Assembly (NCBI GenBank): GCA_903813345.2
Contig: CAIIXF020000002.1
Location: 35,408,609 to 35,472,608, forward strand
DNA length: 64,000 bases
Origin: Owenia fusiformis
Taxonomy: Eukaryota > Annelida > Polychaeta > Sabellida > Oweniidae
Reading direction: 5' to 3'
Position numbers and translations under genes: made by a program. Below are positions 1,111 through 55,499 of this stretch, one piece after another (the first letter of the stretch is position 1; every line of letters begins with the position of its first letter). The notes below the pieces were generated by a model that was not told the origin of the DNA, did not search any database, and was given only the letters and a program-made list of their open reading frames with translations.

Positions 1111-1551
1111 CTCTTTTAATGGCTGTAGGAAGTATTTTATCAATGGTATTATGCCCCATAGCCTGTGGTAAGAACCATATGATGCTATCTGGCGGGGCCT
1201 TGCGACACGGACTCAAGTAAAATGGTGCCTCGGGATGATTCATGCTTGGAGGACGCTTTTCTGCATATTTCATATATACACTGACGGGATCCTTTGGATC
1301 ATCTGGGTCTCCACTAGTGCTAAATAACATGCTAGCATTGGAGTCCCATGTACTAGAATCTTTGTGTGAGTAGGCTTTATGTTTCCGATGAAATTTCAAG
1401 TATTTTTTATTTGTATCTGGATGTGTATTTAAAGTGATGTCTCCCCATTTAATATCACGATTGTCCTTTCCTGTCCTAACTCCAAAGTGAACAATGTTGT
1501 TCCACCACACTGTTGTGACAAGGCTAGTTGGGTCTGTTATACCAAATACAC
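1111..1551 (-). CDS. Crypton-derived DUF3504 domain, exon D
   Basis: Fourth exon, 441 bp, phase 1 to phase 1. Acceptor ATGATTACAG at 1552-1553; donor AAAAGAG|GTATTT at 1111. The junction with exon C reads ETMFAVG-VFGITDPTSLVTT, continuous with the family. Recognisable DUF3504 landmarks are VWWNNIVHFGVRTGKDNRD, then IKWGDI, then a run ending DPVSVYMKYAEKRPPSMN and APFYLSP. The Arg in HFGVR sits where the first catalytic Arg of the tyrosine recombinase lies. The HxxR box and Tyr nucleophile region would be in a following exon, which I cannot find in the 1.1 kb to the left edge. The first ~47 bases of this exon, with its acceptor, are the seed of the 87-bp array immediately upstream (1551-6595). 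Confidence 0.75.
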
Positions 1552-4500
1552 CTGTAATCATAATGTAAAATATCAGATTACATGTAATACACCACACTGT
1601 TGTTACAAGGCTAGTGGGGTCTGTTATACCAAATACACCTGTTATTAAATGTAAAATATCAGATTACATGTTATACACCAAACTGTTGTGACAAGGCTAG
1701 TTGGGTCTGTTATACCAAATACACCTGTAATCATAATGTAAATATCAGATTACATGTAATACACCACGCTGTTGTGACAAGGCTAGTTGGGTCTGTTATA
1801 CCAAATACACCTGTAATCATAATGTAAATATCAGATTACATGTAATACACCACGCTGTTGTGACAAGGCTAGTGGGGTCTGTTATACCAAATACACCTGT
1901 AATCATAATGTAAATATCAGATTACAGGTAATACACCACACTGTTGTGACAAGGCTAGTGGAGTCTGTTATACCAAATACACCTGTAATAATAATGTAAA
2001 ATATCAGATTACATGTAATACACCACACTGTTGTGAAAAGGCTAGTTGGGTCTGTTATACCAAATACACCTGTAATCATAATGTAAAATATCAGATTACA
2101 TGTAATACACCACACTGTTGTGAAAAGGCTAGTTGGGTCTGTTATACCAAATACACCTGTAATCATAATGTAAATATCAGATTACATGTGATACACCATA
2201 CTGTTGTGACAAGGCTAGTCCGGTCAGTTATACCAAATACACCTGTAATCATAATGTAAAATATCAGATTACATGTAATACACCACACTGTTGTGACAAG
2301 GCTAGTGGGGTCAGTTATACCAAATACACCTGTAATAATAATGTAAAATATCAGATTACATGTAATACACCACACTGTTGTGACAAGGCTAGTGGGGTCA
2401 GTTATACCAAATACACCTGTAATAATAATTTAAAATATCAGATTACATGTAATACACCACACTGTTGTGACAAGGCTAGTGGGGTCAGTTATACCAAATA
2501 CACCTGTAATCATAATGTAAAATATCAGATTACAGGTAATACACCACACTGTTGTGACAAGGCTAGTGGAGTCTGTTATACCAAATACACCTGTAATAAT
2601 AATGTAAAATATCAGATTACATGTAATACACCACACTGTTGTGAAAAGGCTAGTTGGGTCTGTTATACCAAATACACCTGTAATCATAATGTAAAATATC
2701 AGATTACATGTAATACACCACACTGTTGTGAAAAGGCTAGTGGAGTCAGTTATACCAAATACACCTGTAATAATAATGTAAAATATCAGATTACATGTAA
2801 TACACCACACTGTTGTGACAAGGCTAGTTGGGTCTGTTATACCAAATACACCTGTAATCATAATGTAAATATCAGATTACATGTAATACACCACACTGTT
2901 GTGAAAAGGCTAGTTGGGTCTGTTATACCAAATACACCTGTAATCATAATGTAAATATCAGATTACAGGTAATACACCACACTGTTGTGACAAGGCTAGT
3001 GGAGTCTGTTATACCAAATACACCTGTAATCATAATGTAAATATCAGATTACAGGTAATACACCACACTGTTGTGACAAGGCTAGTGGAGTCTGTTATAC
3101 CAAATACACCTGTAATCATAATGTAAATATCAGATTACAGGTAATACACCACACTGTTGTGACAAGGCTAGTGGAGTCTGTTATACCAAATACACCTGTA
3201 ATCATAATGTAAAATATCAGATTACATGTAATACACCACACTGTTGTGACAAGGCTAGTGGGGTCTGTTATACCAAATACACCTGTAATCATAATGTAAA
3301 ATATCAGATTACATGTTATACACCACCCTGTTGTGACAAGGCTAGTGGGGTCTGTTATACCAAATACACCTGTAATCATAATGTAAAATATCAGATTACA
3401 TGTAATACACCACACTGTTGTGACAAGGCTAGTGGGGTCTGTTATACCAAATACACCTGTTATTAAATGTAAAATATCAGATTACATGTTATACACCAAA
3501 CTGTTGTGACAAGGCTAGTGGGGTCTGTTATACCAAATACACCTGTAATCATAATGTAAAATATCAGATTACATGTAATACACCACACTGTTGTGACAAG
3601 GCTAGTGGGGTCTGTTATACCAAATACACCTGTAATTAAATGTAAAATATCAGATTACATGTAATACACCACACTGTTGTGACAAGGCTAGTGGGGTCTG
3701 TTATATCAAATACACCTGTAATCATAATGTAAAATATCAGATTACATGTAATACACCACACTGTTGTGACAAGGCTAGTGGGATATGGTATACCAAATAC
3801 ACCTGTAATTAAATGTAAAATATCAGATTACATGTAATACACCACACTGTTGTGACAAGGCTAGTGGGGTCTGTTATACCAAATACACCTGTAATCATAA
3901 TGTAAAATATCAGATTACATGTAATACACCACACTGTTGTGACAAGGCTAGTGGGGTCTGTTATACCAAATACACCTGTAATCATAATGAAAAATATCAG
4001 ATTACATGTAATACACCACACTGTTGTGACAAGGCTAGTGGGATATGGTATACCAAATACACCTGTAATTAAATGTAAAATATCAGATTACATGTAATAC
4101 ACCACGCTGTTGTGACAAGGCTAGTTGGGTCTGTTATACCAAATACACCTGTAATCATAATATAAAATATCAGATTACATGTAATACACCATACTGTTGT
4201 GACAAGGCTAGTTGGGTCTGTTATACCAAATACACCTGTAATCATAATGTAAAATATCAGATTACATGTTATACACCACACTGTTGTGACAAGGCTAGTG
4301 GGGTCTGTTGTACCAAATACACCTGTAATCATAATGTAAATATCAGATTACATGTAATACACCACACTGTTGTGACAAGGCTAGTGGGGTCAGTTATACC
4401 AAATACACCTGTAATCATAATGTAAATATCAGATTACATGTAATACACCACACTGTTGTGACAAGGCTAGTGGGGTCAGTTATACCAAATACACCTGTAA

Positions 4501-6595
4501 TTAAATGTAAAATATCAGATTACATGTTATACACCACACTGTTGTGACAAGGCTAGTGGGGTCTGTTATACCAAATACACCTGTAATCATAATGTAAATA
4601 TCAGATTACAGGTAATACACCACACTGTTGTGACAAGGCTAGTGGGGTCTGTTGTACCAAATACACCTGTAATCATAATGTAAAATATCAGATTACATGT
4701 AATACACCATACTGTTGTGACAAGGCTAGTGGGGTCTTTTATACCAAATACACCTGTAATTAAATGTAAAATATCAGATTACATGTAATACACCACACTG
4801 TTGTGACAAGGCTAGTGGGGTCTGTTATACCAAATACACCTGTTATCATAATGTAAATATCAGATTACATGTAATGCACCACACTGTTGTGACAAGGCTA
4901 GTTGGGTCTGCTATTCCAAATACACCTGTAATTAAATGTAAAATATCAGATAACATGTTATACACCACACTGTTGTGACAAGGCTAGTGGGGTCTGTTAT
5001 ACCAAATACACCTGTAATTAAATGTAAAATATCAGATTACATGTAATACACCACACTGTTGTGACAAGGCTAGTGGGGTCTGTTATATCAAATACACCTG
5101 TAATCATAATGTAAAATATCAGATTACATGTAATACACCACACTGTTGTGACAGGGCTAGTGGGGTCTGTTATATCAAATACACCTGTAATCATAATGTA
5201 AAATATCAGATCACATGTAATACACCACACTGTTGTGAAAAGGCTAGTGGGGTCTGTTATACCAAATACACCTGTAATCATAATGTAAAATATCAGATCA
5301 CATGTAATACACCACACTGTTGTGAAAAGGCTAGTGGGGTCTGTTATACCAAATACACCTGTAATCATAATGTAAATATCAGATTACATGTAATACACCA
5401 CACTGTTGTGACAAGGCTAGTGGGGTCTGTTATACCAAATACACCAGTAATCATAATGTAAATATCAGATTACATGTTATACACCACACTGTTGTGAAAA
5501 GGCTAGTGGGGTCTGTTATACCAAATACACCTGTAATCATAATGTAAAATATCAGATTACATGTTATACACCAAACTGTTGTGACAAGGCTAGTGGGGTC
5601 TGTTATACCAAATACACCAGTAATCATAATGTAAAATATCAGATTACATGTAATACACTATACTGTTGTGAAAAGGCTAGTGGGGTCTGTTATACCAATA
5701 CACCTGTAATCATAATGTAAAATATCAGATTACATGTAATACACCACACTGTTGTGAAAAGGCTAGTGGGGTCTGTTATACCAAATACACCTGTAATCAT
5801 AATGAAAAATATCAGATTACATGTAATACACCACACTGTTGTGACAAGGCTAGTGGGGTCTGTTATACCAAATACACCTGTAATCATAATGTAAAATATC
5901 AGATTACATGTAATACACCACACTGTTGTGAAAAGGCTAGTGGGGTCTGTTATACCAAATACACCTGTAATCATAATGAAAAATATCAGATTACATGTAA
6001 TACACCACACTGTTGTGACAAGGCTAGTGGGGTCTGTTATACCAATACACCTGTAATCATAATGTAAAATATCAGATTACATATAATACACCACACTGTT
6101 GTGACAAGGCTAGTGGGGTCTGTTGTACCAAATACACCTGTAATCATAATGTAAAATATCAGATCACATGTAATACACCACACTGTTGTGACAAGGCTAG
6201 TGGGGTCTGTTATACCAAATACACCTGTAATCATAATGTAAAATATCAGATTACATGTAATACACCACACTGCTTTGACAAAGCTAGTAGGGTCAGTTAT
6301 ACCAAATACACCTGTAATCATAATGTAAAATATCAGATTACATGTAATGCACCACACTGTTGTGAAAAGGCTAGTGGGGTCAGTTATACCAAATACACCT
6401 GTAATTAAATGTAAATATCAGATTACATGTAATACACCACACTGTTGTGACAAGGCTAGTGGGGTCAGTTATACCAAATACACCTGTAATCATAATGAAA
6501 AATATCAGATCACATGTAATACACCATACTGTTGTGACAAGGCTAGTGGGGTCAATTATACCAATACACCTGTAATCATAATACACCATGCTGCT
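1551..6595 (-). repeat. 87-bp tandem array (about 58 copies) derived from the intron/exon D junction
   Basis: Read on the minus strand, each unit has two parts. About 40 bases are intron-like and end ...ATGATTACAG, a 3' splice-site signal. About 47 bases match the start of exon D (GTGTATTTGGTATAACAGAC...). The period is mostly 87 bp; some units lose one A (86 bp) or carry small indels (for example the tgttattaaatg variant). Units vary at few positions: SLVTT versus SLFTT, TDP versus TDS. Because 87 is a multiple of three, runs of units stay open as a 29-residue repeat, interrupted where 86-bp units shift the frame. The array sits entirely in the intron between exons C and D, directly abutting exon D. 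The right edge ends at about 6595 against a fragment of another dispersed repeat. Confidence 0.95.
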
Positions 6596-6870
6596 GTGAG
6601 TTGACATTTTGAAAATCACCTTACGAGCAGAACTTCTACCCCCATAGGGTATATGTGTACAAAATATGAACAAAATCGGGCAAAAGTATTTGAGCTATTG
6701 CCAGGACAGACGAATGAAAGGACGGACGTCTAGGTTACTGCTTGTATGGACAGACAGATGGATGGATGCGTTCCCTATATCCCTCCAGACTTCATATGAT
6801 GGCATAAAAATGGGGTTACAATCAAAATATGTCCCAGGGATTTTTTATAAATTAATTAAATCTTAACTTG
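6596..6870 (-). mobile_element. truncated copy of dispersed element family M2
   Basis: The sequence matches, in reverse complement, the 5' part of the element starting near 60915. Shared landmarks are tacccccatagggtatatg, a tattttgttcatattttgtac-like block, GGACGGACG simple repeats and ccctatatccctcc. The right terminal inverted repeat has decayed. It abuts the end of the 87-bp array. Confidence 0.6.
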
Positions 6871-7516: not shown

Positions 7517-7964
7517 CTACGGCAAACATAGTTTCAATTTCATCTTGAGAGAGTCCCCGACTTGCATTAGGCTTATTGCCCAGTCCTTGAGATCTTAACT
7601 CCTTTTGTTTTGACTTCAATGCTAATCTTGCCTCATGGAATACCTTACTAGTACTAATGGCCTCCTCATAATCTACCGATCTGAGATATCTGCTAAAACT
7701 GGCGAGTAGAGCCCTTAATGAGCCTGGCTGGTATTCCTGGCCATTTTTCTGCCGAATTTGTATAAAAAACGAAGCCAGATGTTGGTTAAGTTCAAATGGT
7801 GGAATTTCTTCCGCTTTGCGCTCTTCGCCTTTTGTTTGAAGGTATTCCTGTAGAATTCTCATATCAAGTTTGGTTTTTTTTCTGTGTAGATGCATTTTCT
7901 TGCTGTTGAATATAATCATCTGGGTTAATGTCCAAGGCATATCTTGGCTTCCATGAGATTATAT
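7517..7964 (-). CDS. Crypton-derived DUF3504-type protein, exon C (core-binding-like helical domain), frameshifted
   Basis: Third exon. Acceptor TTTTTCTAG lies at 7965-7966 and donor GCCGTAG|GTAAGT at 7517. The first ~27 residues (DIISWKPRYALDINPDD...) are in frame with exon B. The conserved helical part (TKLDMRILQEYL...PFELNQHLASFFIQIRQ...YQPGSLRALLASFSRYL...GLSQDEIETMFAVG) is in another frame. The switch falls at a run of eight A on the coding strand (T8 at 7874-7881). With one base fewer, exon length becomes 447 and every exon phase in the gene agrees, so a single-base excess is the simplest reading: sequencing or assembly error, allelic null or recent pseudogenisation. The helical region resembles the SAM-like core-binding half of tyrosine-recombinase-derived proteins that precedes DUF3504 in KIAA1958/ZMYM/QRICH1. 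No upstream stop would otherwise be needed for function. Confidence 0.7.
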
Positions 7965-8540: not shown

Positions 8541-9299
8541 AATGTATCAACATACTAACAGCACTCTGATATATCAACATACTAACAGCACTCTGATATA
8601 TCAACATACTAACAGCACTCTGATATATCAACATACTAACAGCACTCTGATATAATAACATACTAACAGCACTCTGATATATCAACATACTAACAGCACT
8701 CTGATATATCAACATACTAACAGCACTCTGATATATCAACATACTAACAGCACTCTGATATATCAACAAACTAACAGCACTCTGATATATCAACATACTA
8801 ACAGCACTCTGATATATCAACATACTGACAACACTCTGATATATCAACATACTAACAGCACTCTGATATAATAACATACTAACAGCACTCTGATATATCA
8901 ACATACTAACAGCACTCTGATATAATAACATACTAACAGCACTCTGATATATCAACATACTAACAGCACTCTGATAATTCAACATACTAACAGCACTCTG
9001 ATATATCAACATACTAACAGCACTCTGATATATCAACATACTAACAGCACTCTGATATATCAACATACTAACAGCACTCTGATATAATAACATACTAACA
9101 GCACTCTGATATATCAACATACTAACAGCACTGTGATATATCAACATACTAACAGCACTCTGATATATCAACATACTAACAGCACTCTGATATATCAACA
9201 TACTTACAGCACTCTGATATATCAACATACTAACAGCACTCTGATATATCAACATACTAACAGCACTCTGATATATCAATATACTGACAGCACTCTGAT
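8541..9299. repeat. 27-bp tandem array, first segment
   Basis: The unit is atatcaacatactaacagc + actctgat, 27 bp, repeated about 28 times with rare substitutions (for example ataataacat variants). The array continues at 9776-10305 and 11911-12012; two transposon insertions split it. It lies in the intron between exons B and C. The 9-residue open repeats seen on either strand follow from 27 being a multiple of three and are not protein evidence. Confidence 0.95.
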
Positions 9300-9307
9300 A
9301 TATTAAC

Positions 9308-9775
9308 TAGTGTTGTCGCGATTAATCGATACATCGCGATATACATCGCCAAAGCTGGTTCTGGCGATGCATCGATGTCTGAAACAAAACATCGATGTTT
9401 TTAAAAAATTTTAATTTGCTAAAAATCGCCCTTTCTTATCTTATTTTGACGCAAATTGCTTACCTTTTTTCATGTCTTATTTCATTTTCAAATGTTTTCT
9501 GATATTCTTTCTCTTTAAAACTGTTTTAGCTAGTCGAAATGAACCATTAATCTAAAAAAATTACTTTACTTTCATTTCACCGTTATTAAGTTCCCGGATG
9601 TACCAGCGTACTCTTATTAATTTGTTCTGTTCGATATTTTAGTGCATTAGCGTTCGGTATTTCAGTGCACTTTTCTCGAACTTTTTCTCGATGTACATCG
9701 CGATGTGCATCGATGTTTACTACTGAAAATTGCCGATGCATCGATGTACGATTATGGCACATCGCGACAACACTA
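9308..9775. mobile_element. 468-bp hAT-like MITE inserted in the 27-bp satellite
   Basis: Perfect 15-bp terminal inverted repeats TAGTGTTGTCGCGAT / ATCGCGACAACACTA. It is flanked by an 8-bp duplication of satellite sequence: atattaac (9300-9307) and atatcaac (9776-9783), one mismatch. Eight-bp duplications and TAG..CTA ends fit hAT elements. The subterminal regions are dense in ATCGATG/CATCGAT motifs, which could be transposase binding sites. No ORF, so non-autonomous. Confidence 0.85.
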
Positions 9776-10305
9776 ATATCAACATACTAACAGCACTCTG
9801 ATATATCAACATACTAACAGCACTCTGATATATCAACATACTAACAGCACTTTGAAATATCAACATACTAACAGCACTCTGATATATCAACATACTGACA
9901 GCACTCTGATATATCAACATACTAACAGCACTCTGATATATCAACATACTAACAGCACTGTGATATATCAACATACTAACAGCACTCTGATATATCAACA
10001 TACTAACAGCACTCTGATATATCAACATACTAACAGCACTCTGATATATCAACATACTGACAGCACTCTGATATATCAACATACTAACAGCACTCTGATA
10101 TATCAACATACTAACAGCACTCTGATATATCAACATACTAACAGCACTCTGATATATCAACATACTAACAGCACTCTGATATATCAACATACTAACATCA
10201 CTCTGATATATCAACATACTAACAGCACTCTGATATATCAACATACTAACAGCACTCTGATATATCAACATACTAACAGCACTCTGATATAATAACATAC
10301 TAACA
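9776..10305. repeat. 27-bp tandem array, second segment
   Basis: Continuation of the 27-bp satellite, about 19 units, in phase with the first segment once the inserted element is removed. One CACTTTGAAA-type and one ACATCACTC variant occur. Confidence 0.95.
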
Positions 10306-11910
10306 CAGTGCCGTCAGATGGGGGGGGTGCGATGGGTGCGACCGCACCCCCCTTTGTCACTCCCCAAAATAAATTTGAAAAAAAAATTTGAAAAAAATAA
10401 TTTTTTTTGAAAAATATTTTTTTTTGTAATTTTTTTTCATTGACTCATACACTTTGAAAGTACCCAGAAAGCACCAAATAGCATCTTAAAATTGTAAAAT
10501 TTTCTAGGGGCATTGGCCACCCCTCACACCCCCCACAAAACAATGGAAAAGTTCTAAATTTATTTTAGTGTTTTGTCTCAGACACTTTCAAAGTGCCCAG
10601 ACATCATCAAGTAGCTCCTTGATATAGTAAGTGTTTCTGGGGGACTTGCTCCCCCTCTTGCATCTTGCACTTGCATAACCCCCCCTCCCTCTGCCCCCCC
10701 CCCTTGACCCCCTCCCCCCCAAAAAATTGTGATTTTCTCAAATTCTTTAATTGACTCATACACTTTGAAAGTGCCCAGAAAGCACCAAATAGCGTCGTAA
10801 AATTGTAAAATCTTCTAGGGGGAGTGGGCCACCCCTCACATCCCAAACAAAACAATGGAAAAGTTCTGGATTTGTTTTATGTATTGACACTTTTAAATTG
10901 CCCAGACATCATCAAATAGCTCCTTGATAAAGTTAATGATTCTGGAAGACTAACACTTTACTCGCCCTCTGGCATCCCAACTCCACCTACCCCTCTGGCA
11001 GCCCCCCCCCACTAACACCCCCTTTGAAAGTGCCCAGAAAGCACCAAATAGCACCTTAAAATTGTAAAATTTTCTTGGGAAATAGGCACTTTTAGGCACA
11101 GACACTTTTAAAATGCCCAAACTTCATCGAATAGCACCTTGATATTGTAAATGTTGATATGGTGGACAAACACTTGCTCCCCTCTGGCACCCCAGCCCCA
11201 CCTCCCCCTCTGGCACCCCCCCCCCCATTGACAACCCCGAAATTTGATGTGCTTGTTTTTCAATGTTTTTATTGACTAATACACTTTAAAAGTGTCCAGA
11301 AGCACCAAATATCATCTTTAAATTGTAAAATTTTCTAGGAGAGTTAGCCACACCTCAGATCCCCCACAAAACAAAAGAAAATATTCCTTGCTCCCCTACT
11401 GGCCCCCACCTCACTTCACCCTCTCATCCTCTTTGACACCCCCAAAAGAATTTGAAAAAAAATTCACATTTTTCTTATTGACTCATAACGCACAGGCGTA
11501 CCAGATGGTTGCAAATTCGCTCCAAATACAACCAAATTTCAAAATTTCCTGGGGAAGGACCCCAGACCCCCCTGAATGCTCGGTTTTTATTCACTCAACT
11601 CTTATTCCCGTGGTGGTGGCGTACTACTTGGAAACTTACACTTTGAAAGTGCCAAGAAAGCACCAAATAGCATCTCAAAACTGTAAAATTTTCTAGGGGG
11701 AGTGGACCACTCGTCACGACCCCCAAAAAACAATTGGAACGTTTGGAAGTTGCATTTGTTAATTCCAAACCAATATAGAGAGTAACTGAGCCCCCCCCCC
11801 CCATCTGACTTACGCGATTTGATTTACGCGGCAAAAAATTGACAATTTTATATTCTCTTTAGTAAGCTAAAAACCGCACCCCCCTTGGAGAAAAGTGTCT
11901 TACGGGCCTG
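10306..11910. mobile_element. 1.6-kb non-coding element inserted in the 27-bp satellite
   Basis: Left end CAGTGCCGTCAGA, right end (complement) CAGGCCCGTAAGA, 10 of 13 matching. A 5-bp duplication TAACA lies at 10301-10305 and 11911-11915. The interior is a string of diverged ~300-bp repeats (landmarks actttgaaagtgcccagaa, caccaaatagc, ttttctaggggg at about 10450, 10760, 11030, 11285, 11640) separated by poly-C/poly-A tracts. There is no transposase. The satellite resumes exactly at the right boundary, which fixes the ends. Confidence 0.8.
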
Positions 11911-12012
11911 TAACAGCACTCTGATATATCAACATACTAACAGCACTCTGATATATCAACATACTAACAGCACTCTGATATATCAACATACTAATAGCAC
12001 TCTGATATATCC
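11911..12012. repeat. 27-bp tandem array, third segment
   Basis: Last ~3.8 units of the 27-bp satellite, ending 110 bp from the donor of exon B. Confidence 0.95.
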
Positions 12013-12122: not shown

Positions 12123-12350
12123 CAGTCTTTTTGTCTACTAGGCCTGATTCATCCATTGTGTTGTCAGTGCTATCAAATACATCTTCTTGCATCCAACTGG
12201 TCCCTGCAGCATCTTCATCCCAAATATCTTCCTCATCTTCATCTTGGTCCAACATGACAGGTTCCTGTTTAATATCTATGTTCCTCAACAATTTGACAGG
12301 TGGTTCATCTATGGAATCCGTACCCTTCCTTTTTGGCCCTCTAATCTCAT
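12123..12350 (-). CDS. Crypton-derived DUF3504-type protein, exon B (acidic linker, NLS/SUMO-like motifs)
   Basis: Second exon, 228 bp, phase 1 to phase 1. The acceptor is TTATTTTTAG at 12351 and the donor ACTG|GTATGTG lies at 12123/12122. The peptide opens DEIRGPKRKG, a short basic cluster that could be a nuclear localisation signal. It continues LLRNIDIKQEP, in which IKQE fits the SUMO-acceptor consensus (hydrophobic-K-x-E). It then runs into an acidic stretch (DQDEDEEDIWDEDAAG). Such acidic, SUMO-motif-bearing linkers are common in nuclear chromatin proteins. The junction with exon A keeps the frame open, which supports a real exon. Function of the linker is inferred only. Confidence 0.65.
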
Positions 12351-12723: not shown

Positions 12724-13264
12724 CTCCAGTATTGTAATGCTCAGTTGTTTCAACTGCCAATCGTTCTTCATCAGGTTTATCGACATGTAAGGGATGCTGC
12801 ACAGGCAAATCAACATGTGGTGTGTCATGGTGAGATTGTTCTAACTGTTCAAAGTCATCGTTTGAATTAGTTTGTAATGGGTCAATATGTGAAAGTCTAG
12901 TTGATGATGTCATGGCGTGGGAAACATCTGTCATTTTAACACCAACGTGTGACTGGTTTTTAGATGAGCTGGGTTCCAAAGTAAGGGTCTGGTTTTCCCC
13001 AATTTTGTCAATATCACTATCTTTCTGTTCTGGTTGTATACATGGTTCATGAACACATGTGCAGCACGAACATGGATGTGGATCGAGACATCTTGGCTTC
13101 ATGACAGTCTGATGTATTTTGACAACAATATCTTGTTCTTCTCTACCCTGCGAAACACAGATAATTCCATCAACTTCCAAACATTTGGAGAATGGAAGAG
13201 TCTGTGTGCAAAGTTTTAATACTGCATCCTGAAGAATCTTCGATAATGGATTGCTTGTCCCCAT
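12724..13264 (-). CDS. Crypton-derived DUF3504-type protein, exon A (start codon exon)
   Basis: First coding exon of a minus-strand gene. I chose the ATG at 13264 because an in-frame TAG lies three codons upstream and the context is good (A at -3, G at +4). It encodes about 180 residues: a hydrophilic N-terminus, a Cys-rich patch (CSCCTCVHEPC) and a Ser/Asp/His-rich low-complexity tail. I recognise no catalytic domain in this exon. It ends in a consensus donor (GGAG|GTAATA) at 12724, phase 1. That phase joins without a frame break to the next exon at 12350. Family assignment rests on the two downstream exons, which carry the Crypton-type recombinase-like region. Human relatives of this class (KIAA1958, QRICH1, ZMYM2/3/4, KCTD1) are domesticated Crypton recombinases acting in the nucleus; a nuclear role here is inferred. 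Whether this is a conserved host gene or a lineage-specific Crypton copy is open. Confidence 0.65.
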
Positions 13265-20614: not shown

Positions 20615-21425
20615 TGTTACAGTATTATATTCAATTATATTCACATTAAGTTTAGTTTATCAATATGCATATACTGTAACTGATCTTCATTAGAGATCTT
20701 AGGTCAAGTCAAGGTCACAATGACATTATATCTTGTAAACATAACTGAACTGAATGACTCATTAACTCTTGGCCTTCTAGAAAGTACTGGAACTGTAATC
20801 ATTTAATCAAGATTGAATCATGTGACTTAAGATGTCCAATCAGTGTTATTTTCTAGAAATCGTAACTTCTTGAAACATCTGGACTATGCCTTTGCACTAT
20901 ATAATGAGAGAGCTGATTTGGGCTGTCAGCAGAATTTCAAAGTTTATCAAAAGGACATCTTCTTAGCGGAATATTATAGACACCTACTGTGGGAACATTT
21001 ATAACACTACAAATATACAACCTGAGGACTTTATATGGACATATATTATAACACACACTATATACGGATTATCATATACATTCGTGGATTATCATAAACA
21101 TTTGTGGATTATCATCAAACATTTGTGGATTATCATCAAACATTATTGGATACGAACATTATAGGATTACAACAAACATTATTGGATTATTACAAACATT
21201 GGAGAACTATTAACGATTATTGAAACATTTCGTGATCTGGAACATTCCCAAGGATCGTCAACGACATTTTTCGACATCAAGAATAAGCCGTATCGTTGAT
21301 TGGACATCACTTAAGTATTAAACCTCCTTTATATAATTGTTATATTATTTAGTTTTCAAAATATAAATATATTGTTATCATATTTTAATTGCTGTTTTTA
21401 CTTTCTGTTATTTTCGTACGTAACA
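20615..21425 (+). repeat. 5' LTR of the Gypsy element
   Basis: 811 bp, TG...CA ends with TGTTAC/GTAACA inverted termini. A TATATAA at 20898-20904 after gcctttgcac is a likely core promoter. About five 21-23 bp tandem units (ggattatcat(c)aaacatt-type) lie at 21064-21200. No difference from the 3' LTR noticed by eye. Confidence 0.95.
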
Positions 21426-21448: not shown

Positions 21449-21537
21449 ACAACTACAACAAGCTAAAATTCAAATATTTCAAAATTAGAAATCCAAAACT
21501 TGTACATTAAAATTGTGAAGACAGCAATTAATCGAAA

Positions 21538-24500
21538 ATGAGTTTTGAGGTTGAGACATTTTTAGAAGCGCCCTCTTTGGAGGAATTTGATGATTTAAAG
21601 AAAACTGAACTTCTGGCAATTGCAAAACATGTTGGCCTGTCAGTCAAAAGTTCATACAAAAAGGATACAATTAAAAACTTTGTACTTCAATATTTGGTCG
21701 CAGAATCACTTCTGTCTGAGCAGCCAGCCCAGCATGTTGAGCAAGTTGATCCTATTAAGCTGAAAGAACTAGAATTGAGAGAGAAAGAGTTAGAAATTCA
21801 AAAAGAAAGAGAAATTAGAGAATTGAGAGAGAAAGAAATAGAAAAAGAAATTAGAGAGAAAGAATTACAAATGCAAAATGAAAGAGAAATAAGAGAACAA
21901 GAAATTGAATTAAAGAGGCTTGAAATAGAAGCTAAATCCAAAACTGATGAACATGCTACTATGCATCAACATTTTGAAAATAGGTTTGACGCTTCAAAAT
22001 TTCTCAAATTTGTACCTAAATTTCAAGAGAAAAATGTTGATAAATACTTTACACATTTTGAAAAGGTTGCTCAGAGCCTAGACTGGCCTAAATCTGCATG
22101 GCCAGTTATGCTCCAGAGTGTATTCATTGGAAAAGCAAGTGAAATATTTGCCTCTCTCTCAGGAGAAGTATGCTCTGATTATGACCTAGTTAAAAATGCA
22201 ATTCTTAAAGCTTATGAACTAGTACCAGAAGCTTACAGACAAAAATTTAGAAATGCCCACAAACAGAGTGACCAAACCCATGTTGAGTTTGCTCGAGAGC
22301 AAGAGCAGCTTTTTGACAGGTGGCTTGTCTCTAAAGATGTATCTGAAGAGTTTAAAAAGCTCAGAGAGCTTATGCTAATAGAACAATTTAAAAACTGTGT
22401 TCAGTATCACATTAGAACTTACTTAGATGAACACAAGGTAGAAACTTTAAGTCAAGCTGCCACCCTGTCTGATGATTATGCTCTTACTCATAAGGGTAGT
22501 TTTATCAAAGGTAATCCTAACTTTAGAGGTTATCAAGGTAACAAACCTTCATATGATACAAAATCAAATCAGTCCTCATCATCTAATACATCAAACAAAG
22601 CAAAAGACCAGTCTCATTCATCACAGAGTTCTAGCTCAAAATCAGATCAATCAAATTCTTCAGGTCCAAAATCAAATGTCACCTGTAATTATTGTAAAAA
22701 GCCTGGTCATCTTATTTCTGAATGCTATAGGATTAAGAATAGAAGAGAGATGTCTGGTTCTGCTCATTCAAATGGTTGTGCTACTGTTCCCATTTCAAGA
22801 AAGCCCATTGTTTGGGATTCATATACTCATACTGAGAAATCTACTCATAGTGATATTATGGAGGATTATAAGCCTTTCATGTCGGAAGGATCTGTGTCAC
22901 TGTCAAGTGATGATACCAATTCAAAGCCAATTAAGATTCTTAGAGACACGGGTGCATCTCAGACCTTGTTGTTAGAAGGTGTCCTTCCTTTATCTGCGGA
23001 GTCATTTACAGGTACCCATATTTTGATGCAAGGCATTGAATTAGGATTTACTAAAGTTCCCCTCCATCGTATTCATATCACATCAGAGTTAGTCAAAGGG
23101 CCAGTTATTGTTGGTGTTAGGCCACAACTTCCTGTTGAAGGAGTCGCATTGCTTTTAGGCAATGATTTAGCTGGGGGTAAGGTATCATTAGACCCCATTG
23201 TTTCTGATCAGCCTTGTTCTATTGAGGATTCTGTCCAAGAGGACTCTGATATATATCCTGCTTGTGCTGTTACTAGGGCTATGGCTAAAAGGTTAGCTGA
23301 TAGCGGGGATTCGTCTGTGGGAGATGACTTTGATAGTGGGTTTTTAAGCTCCTTGTTTGATGATGAATGTCACTCACCACTTGTTAAAGATGGTCCTTAT
23401 CCTATTTTAAAGGCAAATTCTTCATTGAAACAACCTTCTGTTCAAGCCAAGCAGTCATCTATTGAGGCAAATTCTTCATTGAAAAAGCCAATTGCCAGAG
23501 GTGATTCACCTTCTGAGCAGGATCACTATTTTAATGCGGTTGCGCCCGCTCTTGCTAGTCTTGATGAAGTTTCATCTTCTTCTGCTAGTGTTCATGAGGT
23601 TTCATCCCCTCCTTGTTCTGAGGTTTCATCCTCTATTTCTGATAGTGATTCTTTGAAAAATGATCCTCATTCTAAACACATGTTAATTTATGAACAAGAG
23701 CATGATCCATCACTCATTGATCTTCATAAAAGATGTCTTACTATTGATGAAGCTGACAAGGTCCCTGTTTGTTTCTACAAAAAGGATGGCATATTAATGC
23801 GAAAGTGGAGACCTCCTGAAGCTTCCCCTGAAGATGATTGGGCAATTGTGCATCAAATTATTGTCCCAAAATCATATCATAAGGAAATCTTGAGTCTAGC
23901 TCATGATTCGCCTATGGCAGGTCATTTAGGAGTAACTAAAACATACCATAAAATACTCAACCATTTCTATTGGCCCAAATTAAAACAAGATGTCCAAGAG
24001 TATTGTAGGTCTTGTCATACATGTCAAATGGTAGGGAAACCTAACCAGAAAATTCCAACTGCTCCTTTACACCCTATACCTGCATTTGACGAACCATTTA
24101 GTAAGGTTCTCATTGACTGTGTTGGTCCATTACCAAAAACAAAATCTGGTAATCAATATTTACTCACTATTCTTTGTATGGCCACACGGTTTCCAGAAGC
24201 GATTCCACTTAGAAATATCAAAGCCAAAAACATAGTGAAATCACTCATCAAATTTTTCACCTTAGTTGGACTGCCAAAAGATCTCCAGTCTGATCAGGGC
24301 TCAAATTTCATGTCAGGCTTATTCCAACAAGTCATGGATACCTTGGGTATCAAACAGTGTAAGTCAAGTGCCTATCACCCAGAGTCTCAAGGAGCTCTAG
24401 AGCGTTACCATCAGACGCTTAAGACCATGATCAGAGCTTTCTGTTTTGAATATGAGAAAGACTGGGATGAGGGCATACCCTTGCTTCTGTTTGCTACCAG

Positions 24501-26481
24501 AGAGGCTAAGCAAGAATCATTAGGGTTCAGTCCATTTGAGCTAGTATTTGGTCATTCTGTGCGTGGTCCACTTAAATTGCTCAAAGAAAAGTGGCTGTCA
24601 GAAACTGAAAAGTTTAATTTATTGAACTATGTCACTGGGTTTAAAGAGCGCCTATCAAAGGCTTGTGAAATAGCCAAAGAAAATTTGCTAAATAGCCAAG
24701 ATAAAATGAAAACTTGGTATGACAGAAAAGTCAAAGAAAGATCTTTCCAGCCAGGTGACAAAGTTCTTATATTGCTGCCACTTCAGACAAATCCATTACA
24801 GGCAAAATTCTATGGTCCTTATGTAGTGGATTCCAAGGTCAATGACCTCAATTATATTGTCAAAACTCCAGATAGGCGCAAAGAAACACAACTGTGTCAC
24901 ATCAATATGATGAAAAGGTACTTTGAGCCAGACAAAGAGCCTGGCTCAGTTAAACCTGTAGTCACTTTGGCACCTGCCCTTGTAAAAGAAACTGATCTAC
25001 AAGATTCAGATGATATCACTTATACTGATTTAGACTATGAAGATATCAAAGGTTTGTCTAGGTTAAAGAACTCTGAAGTATTATCAAATCTAGATCATAA
25101 ATTGCACCATGTGACAAATGATCAAAAACAGCAAGTCACAGAATTAATTCATGAGTTCACTGATATCTTCTCTGATGTACCGACTAAGACATCTATAGCT
25201 TATCATGATGTTGAAGTCCAAGATGTGACCCCTATTAAGCAACATGCTTATAGAGTTAATCCATCAAAATCTGAAGATTTGAGAGCTGAGGTCAATTATA
25301 TGTTAGAAAATGACATAATTGAAAAAAGCAATAGCCCATGGAGTTCACCTGCTTTCATTGTTCCAAAATCAAACGGTGGACGTAGGCTAGTAGTTAATTA
25401 TATCAAGGTGAATCGAGTAACAAAGACCGATTCTTATCCAATACCACGAATTGACGACTGTATTGACAAAATTGGAACTGCTAAATATGTCAGTAAATTT
25501 GATCTCCTCAAAGGATTCCTAGGGGTTCCATTAACTGAAAGAGCAAAACAGGTATCTGCCTTTGTTACTCCTGATGGTTTGTACCAATTTAAAGTTATGC
25601 CATTTGGTATGAAAAATGCACCTGCCACATTTCAAAGAATGATGAATGGCTTATTAGCAGATCTTGAAAACACTGGTGTCTACATCGATGATGTAATTGT
25701 CTATTCTGACACTTTTGATGAACACATGTGTTTGCTGCGTAAGTTGTTTGAAAGAATCTCTTTAGCCAATTTAACCATCAATTTGGCTAAAAGTGAATTT
25801 TGTAAAGCCACAGTTGAATATCTGGGCCATGTGGTAGGTCAAGGACAGGTCAAACCAGTGAGTGCCAAAGTGGAATCAATTACACAACTCCCAGCTCCTA
25901 CTAACAAGAAAGAATTAATGAGAAGTCTTGGAATGGCTGGCTTTTATAGGAAGTTTTGTCCAAATTTTTCTTCAATTGCTCTTCCATTGACCAATTTACT
26001 TGGGAAAAACATCAAATATATGTGGTCTGAGCAATGTCATACAGCCTTTGATAAAATCAAGGCCATACTAAGTGAAGAACCAGTGCTTGTTGCACCTGAT
26101 TTTAGCAAGCCATTCAAGATTCAAGTAGATGCTTCTGATGTAGGAATGGGAGCTGTCCTATTACAAGAAAGGGATGGTATTGATCATCCAGTGTGTTATT
26201 ATTCAAAGAAATTTGATAAACATCAGAAAAACTACTCCACCATAGAAAAGGAATGTCTAGCATTACTTCTGTCATTACAACATTTTGAAGTATATGTTAG
26301 TGCACCAGTTCATGCAGTTACTGTATTTACTGATCACAATCCGCTGACATTCCTTCATAGAATGAAGAACAAGAATCGTAGATTGTTGAGGTGGAGTCTG
26401 TTATTGTCAGAGTACAATCTTGACATAAGACACATCAAAGGCAAGGATAATTTAATTGCTGACACTCTTTCAAGAGTGTAA
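21538..26481 (+). CDS. Gag-Pol polyprotein, Gypsy element with integrase before RT
   Basis: A single 1647-residue ORF with no frameshift between gag and pol. In order: a helical N-terminus (about 1-55); a long charged coiled coil (about 70-140, REKE-type repeats); a Gag region (about 145-320); a zinc knuckle CNYCKKPGHLISEC (383-396); a protease DTGAS motif (Asp 470); a Ser-rich linker (about 600-720). Integrase follows with its HHCC finger (His 789, His 796, Cys 826, Cys 829), then catalytic Asp 860, Asp 919 and Glu 955 (D-35-E spacing) and a GPY motif (1093-1095). Reverse transcriptase is next, with Asp 1322 and YIDD 1382-1385. RNase H closes the ORF, with Asp 1531, an EKEC motif and FTDHNPL (Asp 1599). 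All catalytic residues I looked for are present. The protein would package RNA, copy it in cytoplasmic particles and integrate the cDNA in the nucleus. No envelope gene follows. Confidence 0.97.
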   Translation: MSFEVETFLEAPSLEEFDDLKKTELLAIAKHVGLSVKSSYKKDTIKNFVLQYLVAESLLSEQPAQHVEQVDPIKLKELELREKELEIQKEREIRELREKEIEKEIREKELQMQNEREIREQEIELKRLEIEAKSKTDEHATMHQHFENRFDASKFLKFVPKFQEKNVDKYFTHFEKVAQSLDWPKSAWPVMLQSVFIGKASEIFASLSGEVCSDYDLVKNAILKAYELVPEAYRQKFRNAHKQSDQTHVEFAREQEQLFDRWLVSKDVSEEFKKLRELMLIEQFKNCVQYHIRTYLDEHKVETLSQAATLSDDYALTHKGSFIKGNPNFRGYQGNKPSYDTKSNQSSSSNTSNKAKDQSHSSQSSSSKSDQSNSSGPKSNVTCNYCKKPGHLISECYRIKNRREMSGSAHSNGCATVPISRKPIVWDSYTHTEKSTHSDIMEDYKPFMSEGSVSLSSDDTNSKPIKILRDTGASQTLLLEGVLPLSAESFTGTHILMQGIELGFTKVPLHRIHITSELVKGPVIVGVRPQLPVEGVALLLGNDLAGGKVSLDPIVSDQPCSIEDSVQEDSDIYPACAVTRAMAKRLADSGDSSVGDDFDSGFLSSLFDDECHSPLVKDGPYPILKANSSLKQPSVQAKQSSIEANSSLKKPIARGDSPSEQDHYFNAVAPALASLDEVSSSSASVHEVSSPPCSEVSSSISDSDSLKNDPHSKHMLIYEQEHDPSLIDLHKRCLTIDEADKVPVCFYKKDGILMRKWRPPEASPEDDWAIVHQIIVPKSYHKEILSLAHDSPMAGHLGVTKTYHKILNHFYWPKLKQDVQEYCRSCHTCQMVGKPNQKIPTAPLHPIPAFDEPFSKVLIDCVGPLPKTKSGNQYLLTILCMATRFPEAIPLRNIKAKNIVKSLIKFFTLVGLPKDLQSDQGSNFMSGLFQQVMDTLGIKQCKSSAYHPESQGALERYHQTLKTMIRAFCFEYEKDWDEGIPLLLFATREAKQESLGFSPFELVFGHSVRGPLKLLKEKWLSETEKFNLLNYVTGFKERLSKACEIAKENLLNSQDKMKTWYDRKVKERSFQPGDKVLILLPLQTNPLQAKFYGPYVVDSKVNDLNYIVKTPDRRKETQLCHINMMKRYFEPDKEPGSVKPVVTLAPALVKETDLQDSDDITYTDLDYEDIKGLSRLKNSEVLSNLDHKLHHVTNDQKQQVTELIHEFTDIFSDVPTKTSIAYHDVEVQDVTPIKQHAYRVNPSKSEDLRAEVNYMLENDIIEKSNSPWSSPAFIVPKSNGGRRLVVNYIKVNRVTKTDSYPIPRIDDCIDKIGTAKYVSKFDLLKGFLGVPLTERAKQVSAFVTPDGLYQFKVMPFGMKNAPATFQRMMNGLLADLENTGVYIDDVIVYSDTFDEHMCLLRKLFERISLANLTINLAKSEFCKATVEYLGHVVGQGQVKPVSAKVESITQLPAPTNKKELMRSLGMAGFYRKFCPNFSSIALPLTNLLGKNIKYMWSEQCHTAFDKIKAILSEEPVLVAPDFSKPFKIQVDASDVGMGAVLLQERDGIDHPVCYYSKKFDKHQKNYSTIEKECLALLLSLQHFEVYVSAPVHAVTVFTDHNPLTFLHRMKNKNRRLLRWSLLLSEYNLDIRHIKGKDNLIADTLSRV

Positions 26482-26767: not shown

Positions 26768-27578
26768 TGTTACAGTATTATATTCAATTATATTCACATT
26801 AAGTTTAGTTTATCAATATGCATATACTGTAACTGATCTTCATTAGAGATCTTAGGTCAAGTCAAGGTCACAATGACATTATATCTTGTAAACATAACTG
26901 AACTGAATGACTCATTAACTCTTGGCCTTCTAGAAAGTACTGGAACTGTAATCATTTAATCAAGATTGAATCATGTGACTTAAGATGTCCAATCAGTGTT
27001 ATTTTCTAGAAATCGTAACTTCTTGAAACATCTGGACTATGCCTTTGCACTATATAATGAGAGAGCTGATTTGGGCTGTCAGCAGAATTTCAAAGTTTAT
27101 CAAAAGGACATCTTCTTAGCGGAATATTATAGACACCTACTGTGGGAACATTTATAACACTACAAATATACAACCTGAGGACTTTATATGGACATATATT
27201 ATAACACACACTATATACGGATTATCATATACATTCGTGGATTATCATAAACATTTGTGGATTATCATCAAACATTTGTGGATTATCATCAAACATTATT
27301 GGATACGAACATTATAGGATTACAACAAACATTATTGGATTATTACAAACATTGGAGAACTATTAACGATTATTGAAACATTTCGTGATCTGGAACATTC
27401 CCAAGGATCGTCAACGACATTTTTCGACATCAAGAATAAGCCGTATCGTTGATTGGACATCACTTAAGTATTAAACCTCCTTTATATAATTGTTATATTA
27501 TTTAGTTTTCAAAATATAAATATATTGTTATCATATTTTAATTGCTGTTTTTACTTTCTGTTATTTTCGTACGTAACA
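26768..27578 (+). repeat. 3' LTR of the Gypsy element
   Basis: 811 bp, same length and, as far as I can read, same sequence as the 5' LTR. The TATA-type box is at 27051-27057. Followed by the ATAG duplication. Confidence 0.95.
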
Positions 27579-27965: not shown

Positions 27966-29102
27966 TTAAAAATAGATCTATGGTTTACAACTCATTTTAC
28001 CTGGGGAGACTGTCAGGCTACCGCGTTGACATCACCCCTCTCTACTAGTAGTGCAGGCTTGTTGCTGTGCACTGGGGACCCTTTACATTAAAACATAGAT
28101 CTATATTAAAAACACACCTATTTAATTGCAGTTATTGACATAGGCATAGTATGATGATTTAAAACTACTTAGACTGTCACAGTCTAAGATGTCACCAGGT
28201 AGAGTGTTCCATTTAGCTATTGTCCTAGGGAAATAGCTAAATTTGTATGCATCCGTTCTAGTTGATGGTTGTATGAACTTAGAAGGATGATACAACCTAG
28301 TGTTTGTATTGATCTGTTGGCGGAAGTATGGAGGCACGTCGATGGCTGCTAGGTTCTGCTTTCCTTTGTAGAAAAGGAAAACTCTAGCAGCCTCTCGACG
28401 CTTCTTCAGTGGCTCCCACTGTAGGTCTTGAAGAGCTTTGGTGACGCAGCCTGGTTCCCTTGAGTGACATTTGGTTACAAACCTGGCTGCTCTTCTCTGT
28501 ACCTGTTCCAACATATCAATATCTTTTTGTCGGTATGGATCCCATGCCGAGCTGGCATACTCTAAATTAGGCCGGACTAGTGACTTATACGCCTGAGCCT
28601 TCACTTTTTCAGGGCATTGATGGAGGTTGCACCTGAGAAATCCAAGCACCTTATTGGCTTTGGATACAATAGTTTGAATATGTGTAGTCCAGCGTAAGTT
28701 ATTTGTGATGTCAATTCCTAGGTATGGGATGTGTGTTACCGACTTAAGGTTTTCCCCTAGCATGGTGTAATTGTGCATGATAGGGGATTTACCTTTGTGA
28801 ATATTTAGCACATAGCATTTTGATGGATGGAATTTCATTTGCCATGTTGATGCCCAGGAGACCAGTTTATCAAGATTCTCCTGTAGTGTTAATGCATCTT
28901 GCTTGCTTTCGACTGTCATGAATAAAAGGCTGTCGTCGGCAAAAAGCTTAAGACTGGCTGAGGATGATAGGTTATTGCCCATATCATTAATATAAACAAG
29001 GAAACAGAGTGGTCCAAGAACTGTTCCCTGAGGAACTCCTGATTTTACTGGAGTTTTTGAACTTGATTCACCATCGAGCACTGCCTGTTGTGATCTTCCC
29101 AT
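27966..29102 (-). pseudogene. 5'-truncated LINE, RT C-terminal half (copy A)
   Basis: An open 326-residue frame (29102-28122) begins inside the reverse transcriptase at GRSQQAVLDGESS. It carries SGVPQGTVLGPLCFLVYIND (motif B), FADDSLLF (motif C active site), and the C-terminal signature NLEYASSAWDPYRQKDIDML and AKWNTLP. The first catalytic Asp and the endonuclease domain are missing. This is a 5'-truncated, non-autonomous insertion of a Jockey/CR1-type LINE. About 150 bp of 3' untranslated sequence follows to about 27966. The frame has no stop, so the insertion is young or conserved by chance. Copy B is at 30200-32240. Confidence 0.85.
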
Positions 29103-30100
29103 TTTCTATCACAATTTCCAGAACATGGTGATTTGAGACTTCATACTTTCCAATAATGTCTAGATACACATCCCTTAAGTTTTGTATATTTTACATTTTG
29201 TATACTCTCATCCACTGATGTATAGCCTTCTGAAAATTCACTTCTTTTTACATGGGAAATTCTCACTTCGGCAAATCCAGGTGTTATTTATTTATGGTGA
29301 GGACTGTAGCTACTGAGCTGACAGAAGTCAGCTCTCAAACTTTCAAATGGAATCGATAGAGAAAAATTGTGAGCCCTCTTTAAACGGGGTAACATATTTT
29401 CTATGACTATTCTCATACCAGGAAGTGGAAAATCCAATCATTGCCATAGTTTTGGGTCCATTGCCATACCAAATGTCAAAAAGGTACCCCACGTGAGCTG
29501 AGGATCTTTGTCAAGGTCTGTAGCAGTAGACTGATTCATTAAAGACAAGACTCGATTTGGAGGAAGAAGTTCATCAGTGTACTGGGCTAATATTTTTTAT
29601 GAAAAATATAGAAATATCACCCAAATTAAATTATGGTTATTCAAAAGAGGACATTTAAATCTACAATATGTAAAAATATCAAAATTGTCCAAAGCAGGCG
29701 TAACATGCAGTTAGACTGATGAACTTCATTCTCCAATATGAGACTAGTCTTTTACAAATTAATAGAATCATGGGGAGTAAGAAAATAGAACAAGGGCACT
29801 CAGATCCAATTTCATTCTCAATCCAGTAAACACTTGTGGGATGATGAAAAAAGTAAGTGTAGATGTTGAGATAATTTGTAGATGTCTGAGATACCATGTT
29901 CTTGTTATATCTATTTCATGATAAAAAGTTTTAAACTGCCCTTTCCACCTGGTGAAATTGGGGGAGTCGATTGCTTTGATCTGCTTAAATATGAAAACAA
30001 GTACCCTTTGCATTCGTTTGACTTCACTTCTTAAAAGAGAGCTTCGTCTTCGTCTTCGTCTGTAGTTTAACTAGACTCTGCACGCAGGGTAGAAAACAAG
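29103..30100. other. intergenic sequence, no gene recognised
   Basis: AT-rich. Short open frames on the minus strand near 29.7-30.0 kb lack any family resemblance. A cttcgtcttcgtcttcgtc run lies at 30042-30060. Confidence 0.4.
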
Positions 30101-30992: not shown

Positions 30993-31260
30993 ACGTATAA
31001 TGAGTTGAGTGCTGTGGGTAAAAATAGATCTATACTGAAAAACACACCTTTTAATTGCAGTTATTGACATTGACATATACGAGTATGTATGATGCTTTAA
31101 ACTATTACTTAGACTGTCACAGTCTTAGGGATGTCACCAGGTAGAGTGTTCCATTTAGCTATTGTCCTAGGGAAATATCTAAATTTGTATGCATCCATTC
31201 TTAACAACACTTTTTTAATCTTGGAATCGAGCAATAGCCAAGAATGACAATGCATGCCAA

Positions 31261-31965
31261 TTTTCTATAAATGCCACTTGTCTGGCATGTATTGTTGCAA
31301 TTTCAGGAATCATAATACATTTTCTATAAATGCAACTTGTCTGGCATGTATTGTTGCAATTTCAGGAATCATAATACATTTTCTCTAAATGCAACTTGTC
31401 TTGCATGTATTGTTGTAATTTCAGGAATCATAATACATTTTCTATAAATGCAACTTGTCTGGCATGTATTGTTGCAATTTTAGGAATCATAATACATTTT
31501 CTATAAATGCCACTTGTCTGGCATGTATTGTTGCAATTTTAGGAATCATAATACATTTTTATAAATGCCACTTGTCTGGCATGTATTGTTGCAATTTCAG
31601 GAAACATAATATATTTTCTATAAATGCAACTTGTCTGGCATGTATTGTTGCAATTTCAGGAATCATAATACATTTTCTATAAATGCCACTTGTCTGGCAT
31701 GTATTGTTGCAATTTCAGGAAACATAATATATTTTCTATAAATGCAACTTGTCTGGCATGTATTGTTGCAATTTCAGGAATCATAATACATTTTCTATAA
31801 ATGCAACTTGTCTGGCATGTATTGTTGCAATTTCAGGAATCATAATACATTTTCTATAAATGCCACTTGTCTGGCATGTATTGTTGCAATTTCAGGAAAC
31901 ATAATATATTTTCTATAAATGCCACTTGTCTGGCACGTATTGTTGCAATTTTAGGAATCATAATT
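31261..31965. repeat. 59-bp tandem array, about 12 copies, inside LINE copy B
   Basis: The unit reads tttctataaatgc(c/a)acttg tctggcatgtattgttgcaa tttcaggaatcataatacat, 59 bp, with few substitutions. With its flanks (31201-31260, 31966-32029) it interrupts the LINE between gcatccattct and ctagttgatgg. It may be the core of a small mobile element. Confidence 0.9.
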
Positions 31966-32383: not shown

Positions 32384-32509
32384 GATTGTCCAGAGGATAA
32401 GGTAACATGGCAGACAAGTTGACAAGAATAGCAATTGTCAACAATGACAGGTGCAAGCCTAAAAGATGTCGTCAGGAATGTAAGAGGTCATGTCCTGTCG
32501 TCAGGATGG
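32384..32509 (+). CDS. ABCE1: ABCE1 (RLI1), first coding exon
   Basis: ABCE1 is the essential Fe-S ATPase that splits ribosomes after termination and takes part in initiation, in the cytoplasm. The ATG is at 32407. It is preceded by a 23-base 5' leader and an acceptor (TTTTTGTAG at 32375-32383), so at least one untranslated exon lies upstream. The peptide [20 protein letters not shown] continues [15 protein letters not shown] and is nearly identical to the conserved N-terminus. Its cysteines (CxxxxCxxxCxxxCP) bind the first 4Fe-4S cluster. The donor is ATGG|GTAAGT, phase 1. It splices to 58499 to give GKLCIEV, which keeps the frame. Assignment is by recognition of this highly conserved protein. 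Confidence 0.95.
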
Positions 32510-54449: not shown

Positions 54450-55497
54450 CGTGCGATCAAGGAGGATTGGCTCCCAGAATCGAAGTCGATATTTTCCAAC
54501 AATGAAAACGCCGAAATGTCGTTATTTTCTGAAATTATAACCGATTATAAATTCAAAATAAACAGTTCAAAATATTCGAACCAATATCTCGATCATTTCT
54601 TGTGAGTTTTGGAATTTTTCGTTGGGAAATAAGACCAAAATTCACGATTCAAATGTTTAAGTGAACAAAATGGCGGTCGTTGGAATTCAAATTTTGTAGC
54701 ACGACATGCCCATATATGGGGCAGAATATCGATGTTGCACTCTGGGAGCCAATCCTCCTTGCGTGCGATAATACTTTGTATCAAATTGAATGGTGTTTTT
54801 GAGTTTTCATACTTTAACTATTTAGTAGCTTTATAAATAATTTCAGGTGTACTTTGTTGTAAAAGCCTTTGTTATTGTTAATGGTGGTTATATGTGATAA
54901 TTTTGTAAAAAGAAATCAGCAAAAACTCATAATCACTTTCTTATTGTCGGCCATTTTGGATTTTTCCGTCCTAAAATCTTGTTTGTAAAGTCTTGTCTAC
55001 GCGTTTTCAGGTGAACCGTTTGGTAGATCAATTTCAGATTTTCAGGGATGTTTCTAAGTATGAAAATCTAGATCTGATTAGTTTTTTGACATTCTGGGTA
55101 AATGTCAAGGCGGCCATTTTGGAATTTCCGTCCTAAAATCTTGTCGGTAAAATCTTGTCTATGCATTTCCAGGTGAACCGTTTGGTAGATCAATTTCAAA
55201 TTTTCAGGGATGATTCTTAGTATGAAAATCTAGATCTGATTAGTTTTTTGGCATTCTGCATAAATGTCAAGGCGGCCATTTTGGTTTTTATGTCTTAAAA
55301 TCTTGTCTGTAAAGTCTTGTCTATGCAATATCCAGTTAAGCGTTTGGTAGATCAATTTCATATTTTCAGGGATGATTCTTAGTATAAAAATCTAGATCTA
55401 ATTAGTTTTTTGACATTCTGGGTAAATGTCAAGTCAGCCATTTTGGATTTTCCGTTCTAAAATCTTGTCAGTAAAGTTATTTTGTTTCTTAGCTTTT
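54408..55497 (+). repeat. truncated M1 element body with 162-bp repeats
   Basis: M1 internal sequence (cagtcatg(g/t)cagccattt, gtgtttttgagttttcatac) followed by about four units of the ~162-bp repeat (aatgtcaaggcggccatttt, cttgtctgtaaagtcttgtc, accgtttggtagatcaattt, gattcttagtatgaaaatct). It is interrupted by the 304-bp MITE and abuts a complete M1 copy. Confidence 0.75.
54458..54761. mobile_element. 304-bp MITE with perfect 21-bp termini and 8-bp duplication
   Basis: Termini start CAAGGAGGATTGGCTCCCAG and match perfectly over 21 bp. Target duplication CGTGCGAT lies at 54450-54457 and 54762-54769. M1 copies elsewhere (55890, 60860, 63330) show the uninterrupted site ttagcgcgcgataatac. The 8-bp duplication fits hAT or P-type transposition. 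No ORF. Confidence 0.9.
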
Positions 55498-55499
55498 TA

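Follow-up and report, generated by a model that had tools for sequence, protein, structure and literature searches.

The 64-kb stretch of DNA analyzed here (hereafter the window; the GC content of the sequence examined was 36.2%) contains an array in which one intron/exon junction is repeated in tandem ahead of the exon to which it belongs, and this raises the question of how the array arose and whether it affects the splicing and product of its host gene. The explanation that we consider quite likely is that of a mirage-type minisatellite, seeded within the gene at the boundary between an intron and exon D of a KIAA1958-like DUF3504 gene and normally removed as part of the intron. Mirages are minisatellite-like tandem duplications of an intron/exon boundary, which the available part of one report describes for the lancelet globin genes BflGb6 and BflGb9 and for Adh3, with further loci also being cited (PMC3087553).

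Anatomy of the junction array

The junction array lies on the minus strand at 1503-6596. TRF identified a repeat with a period of 87 at 1503-6582 (58.7 copies, 95% matches, score 9082), which is far beyond chance, and cutting the sequence at the acceptor yielded 59 junctions, namely, 58 array copies and the true one at 1551. The original prediction of approximately 58 tandem copies of an intron/exon junction agrees with the copy number obtained by TRF and with the 58 units upstream of 1551, and its coordinates were correct to within a few bases. The distal end of the array is at approximately 6596, and similarity to a dispersed repeat starts at 6597.

Each array unit is composed of approximately 40 bp of the 3' end of the intron and the 5' 47 bp of exon D, such that the tandem units cross the intron/exon boundary, and the host gene's own intron/exon junction is located at the end of the array (exon D, 1551-1111, DUF3504). 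The array was expected to adjoin exon D, and it does, but the relationship is closer than that of two abutting elements because the final, exon-side copy is exon D itself, i.e., its first 47 bp (1551-1505). The proposed unit length of 87 bp applies to 31 of the junction spacings, whereas 26 are 86 bp and one is 85 bp. Similarly, ATGATTACAG, which had been assigned to each unit, is present, but TAATTACAG, TAATAACAG, ATTATTACAG, and ATGATAACAG occur too.

The pairwise identity of the 58 units averages 94.7%, with a minimum of 86%. Exchange of several units at a time is evident from exact duplications of 222, 210, 194, and 175 bp inside the array, which lie at offsets of approximately 7, 1, 16, and 2 units. 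As plain counts, departures from the consensus are 6, 4, 3, and 5 in the four distal units and 1 and 6 in exon-side units 1 and 2, the mean being 2.6; the distal values are of the kind that an edge excluded from homogenization might give.

The host gene and the origin of the array

Regarding the host gene, which is encoded on the minus strand, exon D (1111-1551, 441 bp) forms an open frame followed by GTATTT and matches DUF3504 (Pfam PF12012, E=5.2e-20) from its first residue, with 72.6 bits against a gathering cut-off of 29.7. Upstream of the array, exon C (7517-7964) contains a QRICH1-like region (E=2.5e-5, below the Pfam cut-off) and is followed by the donor GTAAGT; when it is phased from its acceptor at 7964, a stop comes immediately after a run of eight A residues (7881-7874), beyond which the QRICH1-like sequence has to be read in a different frame. 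Exon E (562-644) encodes the 'NYSARKT' part of DUF3504, enters a second, smaller array (405-624, period 62, 3.5 copies) that starts inside it, and contains a stop at 564-562. This second array repeats part of exon E, breaks the frame, and carries stops. A probable exon B (12123-12350, with its 3' end placed by eye) is open in a phase that fits exon C and has AG and GT flanks, and a probable first coding exon A (12724-13264) is open from an ATG and ends at a donor-like GGAG/GTAATA; exon B showed no Pfam match above the cut-off, and exon A no Pfam match. All four of these other exons are also on the minus strand.

The protein search returned a sole match, P0001, an Exaiptasia protein of 443 residues that bears the name KIAA1958, and the name as used here comes from that match alone. 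Exons C, D, and E, when joined, align to this protein with 120 of 296 residues identical. Among solved structures, only QRICH1 was matched, and weakly. According to the accessible part of PMC3212892, DUF3504 is derived from a Crypton tyrosine recombinase, and KIAA1958 is one of the genes that carry it.

This copy of the gene may be decaying, or the break at the A8 run may be an assembly error. If the gene is in decay, its splicing no longer matters, and the array is neutral debris; the frame break in exon C, the entry of exon E into an array with a stop, and the lack of any further DUF3504 stretch on the minus strand of 1-1200 are consistent with this, whereas the 441 bp of exon D contain no stop, exons A and B also form open frames, and the missing part of the domain could lie beyond the window. 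We regard decay as possible, but rather doubtful, and it is compatible with, not exclusive of, a mirage-type origin.

For that origin, the exon half of the unit is informative. It is DUF3504 coding sequence, and its 15 residues lie within the alignment to the Exaiptasia protein, with 5 of 15 identical. Since the exon half aligns to the protein of a distant animal, the exon gave rise to the repeat rather than the reverse, which supports, but does not prove, the proposal that the intron/exon D boundary of this gene was the seed. The best explanation, the observed part of which consists of the unit anatomy, the coding origin of the exon half, the multi-unit internal duplications, and the loss of frame, is that a tandem duplication took in the last 40 bp or so of the intron together with the first 47 bp of exon D, and that 58 copies may then have built up through unequal exchange or slippage, the gene-side end of the array being the true exon. 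No selected function would be required for the array.

A different source would be a genome-wide or transposon-borne satellite that had captured exon D sequence, in which case the gene was hit by the satellite rather than giving rise to it. A dispersed repeat (6597-6811), 75% identical to 61097-60910, starts directly at the distal end of the junction array, and arrays are abundant in the region (47 TRF rows), both of which fit a satellite. Nevertheless, no copy of the unit was found elsewhere within the 64 kb, and the intronic portion of the unit runs directly into the true junction. A 20-base core of the unit was also missing from viral_contigs and genome_contigs, which is weak evidence since these collections do not include animal genomes as such. 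A satellite origin is, thus, improbable in our judgment.

Several other repeats are present in the window. A 27-bp array (8545-10305 and 11911-12011) is apparently interrupted by 1.6 kb of internally repeated, C-rich segments (10306-11910), and a 162-bp unit is found in several separate arrays in the right-hand part (54948-57260 and 62240-64000). An open frame of 1649 residues (21532-26478) between two copies of a short repeat array (21066-21200 and 27219-27353) resembles an LTR retrotransposon. A database search with a reverse-transcriptase open frame on the minus strand (28125-29105) yielded 1019 relatives (E<=0.001), of which the best share 50-57% identity with it, and the relatives named among the best 120 of these 1019 are from a coral, two bivalves, and a metagenome-assembled bacterium. 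A plus-strand gene, which we take to be ABCE1, has exons at 32407, 58504, and 60112, the first of which is separated from the next one observed by more than 26 kb. The start-codon region in the first exon of this neighboring gene (32405-32421) shares 16 of 17 bases, inverted, with 31333-31349 in the 59-bp unit of another array (31260-31964), probably by chance (E=0.09), and comparisons of the 27-bp and 59-bp units with the exons of the window revealed no convincing match.

Under random rotation of 25 arrays, hand-picked and merged from the TRF rows, relative to 8 exons with some approximate ends, 1.27 arrays ending in exons were expected and 2 were observed (P=0.36), i.e., there was no excess over chance. 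Because the region is so repeat-rich, arrays straddling an exon edge need no special cause, and our default reading is an ordinary minisatellite, the seed of which happened to straddle such an edge.

Splice signals, reading frame, and expected effect on splicing

The putative true 3' splice site of exon D (1551-1574, minus strand) has a branch-point-like CTGAT approximately 22 nt upstream of the junction and an AG at 1553-1552. Splice signals are retained in many, but not all, of the upstream copies: the AG at 56 of the 58 sites, units 47 and 45 having lost it by carrying ATGATTACTG, and CTGAT at 57. Over 26 nt (-23 to +3), 22 of the 58 are identical to the true site. The predicted presence of dozens of acceptor-like sites ahead of the true one was, thus, confirmed.

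The consequences for the protein differ from those envisaged. Distal acceptors or exonized runs were predicted to add 29-residue repeats, on the grounds that 87 is divisible by three and that the unit carries no stop in the exon frame; units of 86 bp were expected to act as frame switches. The frame switches are real (26 spacings of 86 bp), and 27 of the 58 spacings are not multiples of three; the absence of stops is confined to runs of 87-bp units and does not extend over the whole array. When each of the 58 sites was read in the phase set by exon C, only the nearest (1638-1661, minus strand) remained open into exon D, adding 29 residues, and the other 57, 55 of which have an AG, reached a stop after 4-140 residues. 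In this allele, the repeat-adding effect is, therefore, limited to one unit. Transcripts with premature stops are expected targets of nonsense-mediated decay, and this fate would await those spliced at the farther acceptors.

Coding constraint on the exon half is not visible. Variable columns amount to 21 of 47 in the exon half versus 12 of 40 in the intron half, and in the exon half they show no bias by codon position (6/15, 8/16, and 6/16 for positions 1, 2, and 3). Raw departures are most frequent at codon position 3 (35:25:16 for positions 3, 1, and 2), which speaks against the preferred explanation, although shared variants are counted repeatedly in these numbers. The translated array run had no match at E<=1 among 6367 candidate predicted proteins. 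Structured RNA in the unit was also considered and rejected, as three units folded no better than shuffled sequences (z 0.42, 1.62, and -0.30).

The array is probably removed as intron without effect. Of all the acceptors, the true one alone is directly followed by a complete exon D and its donor, which suggests that the array is normally spliced out. That its sites remain unused is suggested by the lack of a full exon with a donor behind each decoy and by published parallels, since Adh3 data and globin RT-PCR, as given in the available text of PMC3087553, suggest that regular splicing is undisturbed by the repeats. Slight use of the acceptor at 1638 may leak through, extending the protein in frame, and use of any acceptor beyond it would lead to a premature stop. 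On the other side, the acceptor signals are as well kept as a splicing role would also predict, which may be explained by the youth of the copies given their identity; the same text allows that mirage copies could serve as cryptic sites (PMC3087553), and a gene model placed an unconfirmed exon within the repeats of lancelet PGBD5, as stated in the part available of PMC3902484.

If the array did take part in splicing, it might compete for the spliceosome, with the stop-bearing mRNAs being destroyed and gene output being tuned by the length of the array. As many as 55 sites that have an AG and lead to a stop and the 22 exact matches to the true site would suit such a role; however, the mirages were reported without a disturbance of splicing in the accessible text of their description, no pattern of constraint is visible, and the gene copy itself may be damaged, which makes this role very unlikely. 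We give hardly any credence to the extended version, in which an extreme-copy mirage, possibly outside lancelets, uses its 55 AG-bearing, stop-leading decoys to make the output of a domesticated-transposon gene depend on array length, a setting that would be heritable and quick to mutate.

Comparison with lancelet mirages and other systems

In the literature searched, no recognized case outside lancelets was present among the matches listed, most subscription papers being outside its scope. The lancelet Adh3 mirage was reportedly first described by Canestro and colleagues. The supposition that a satellite seeded by a splice junction of its host gene had not been described does not stand, because the lancelet mirages, in the available parts of both reports, are the same kind of structure (PMC3087553, PMC3902484). 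The array is a large example of this known kind, and copy number is its standout feature. In BflGb6, units of 150-160 bp occur in 6 and 3 copies, whereas 58 copies of 85-87 bp are present here; with lancelet copy numbers of up to 7 in the accessible text of these reports, the present array is approximately eight times larger. The hosts also differ, being globin and Adh3 genes in lancelets and a DUF3504 gene in the present case. In lancelet mirages, splice signals are kept in many copies and edge copies escape homogenization (PMC3087553, available text), and the internal block duplications in the one haplotype analyzed here are consistent with the variation in copy number between haplotypes that would be expected of a mirage.

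A further parallel is PGBD5 of lancelets, which is also transposon-derived and carries such repeats at two exons, splice sites included (a 60-bp unit in 2 or 7 copies and a 108-bp unit in 3 or 6, depending on the assembly); the part available of that report also cites Adh and troponin C (PMC3902484). Arrays likewise occur at two exons here, D and E, the spanning of a junction being known for the exon D array, although PGBD5 belongs to a different gene family. For lancelet VCBP genes, the accessible text mentions tandem repeats, but no boundary arrays (PMC2632668). If the present host is not a lancelet, mirages would extend to another animal group.

The copying of splice signals inside a gene also recalls intron gain by tandem genomic duplication, as in potato RdRp (PMC4974935, in part) and in the model of Rogers as cited in the available text of PMC3087553; unlike in these cases, an existing intron was lengthened here, with no new intron shown. 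The array represents a natural experiment in splice-site choice, in which 56 AG-bearing, near-identical acceptors precede the true one in a single intron. Identical 3' splice sites also compete in one intron in duplicated-splice-site constructs of globin pre-mRNA, which contain two or a few engineered copies versus the 58 natural ones of the present locus.
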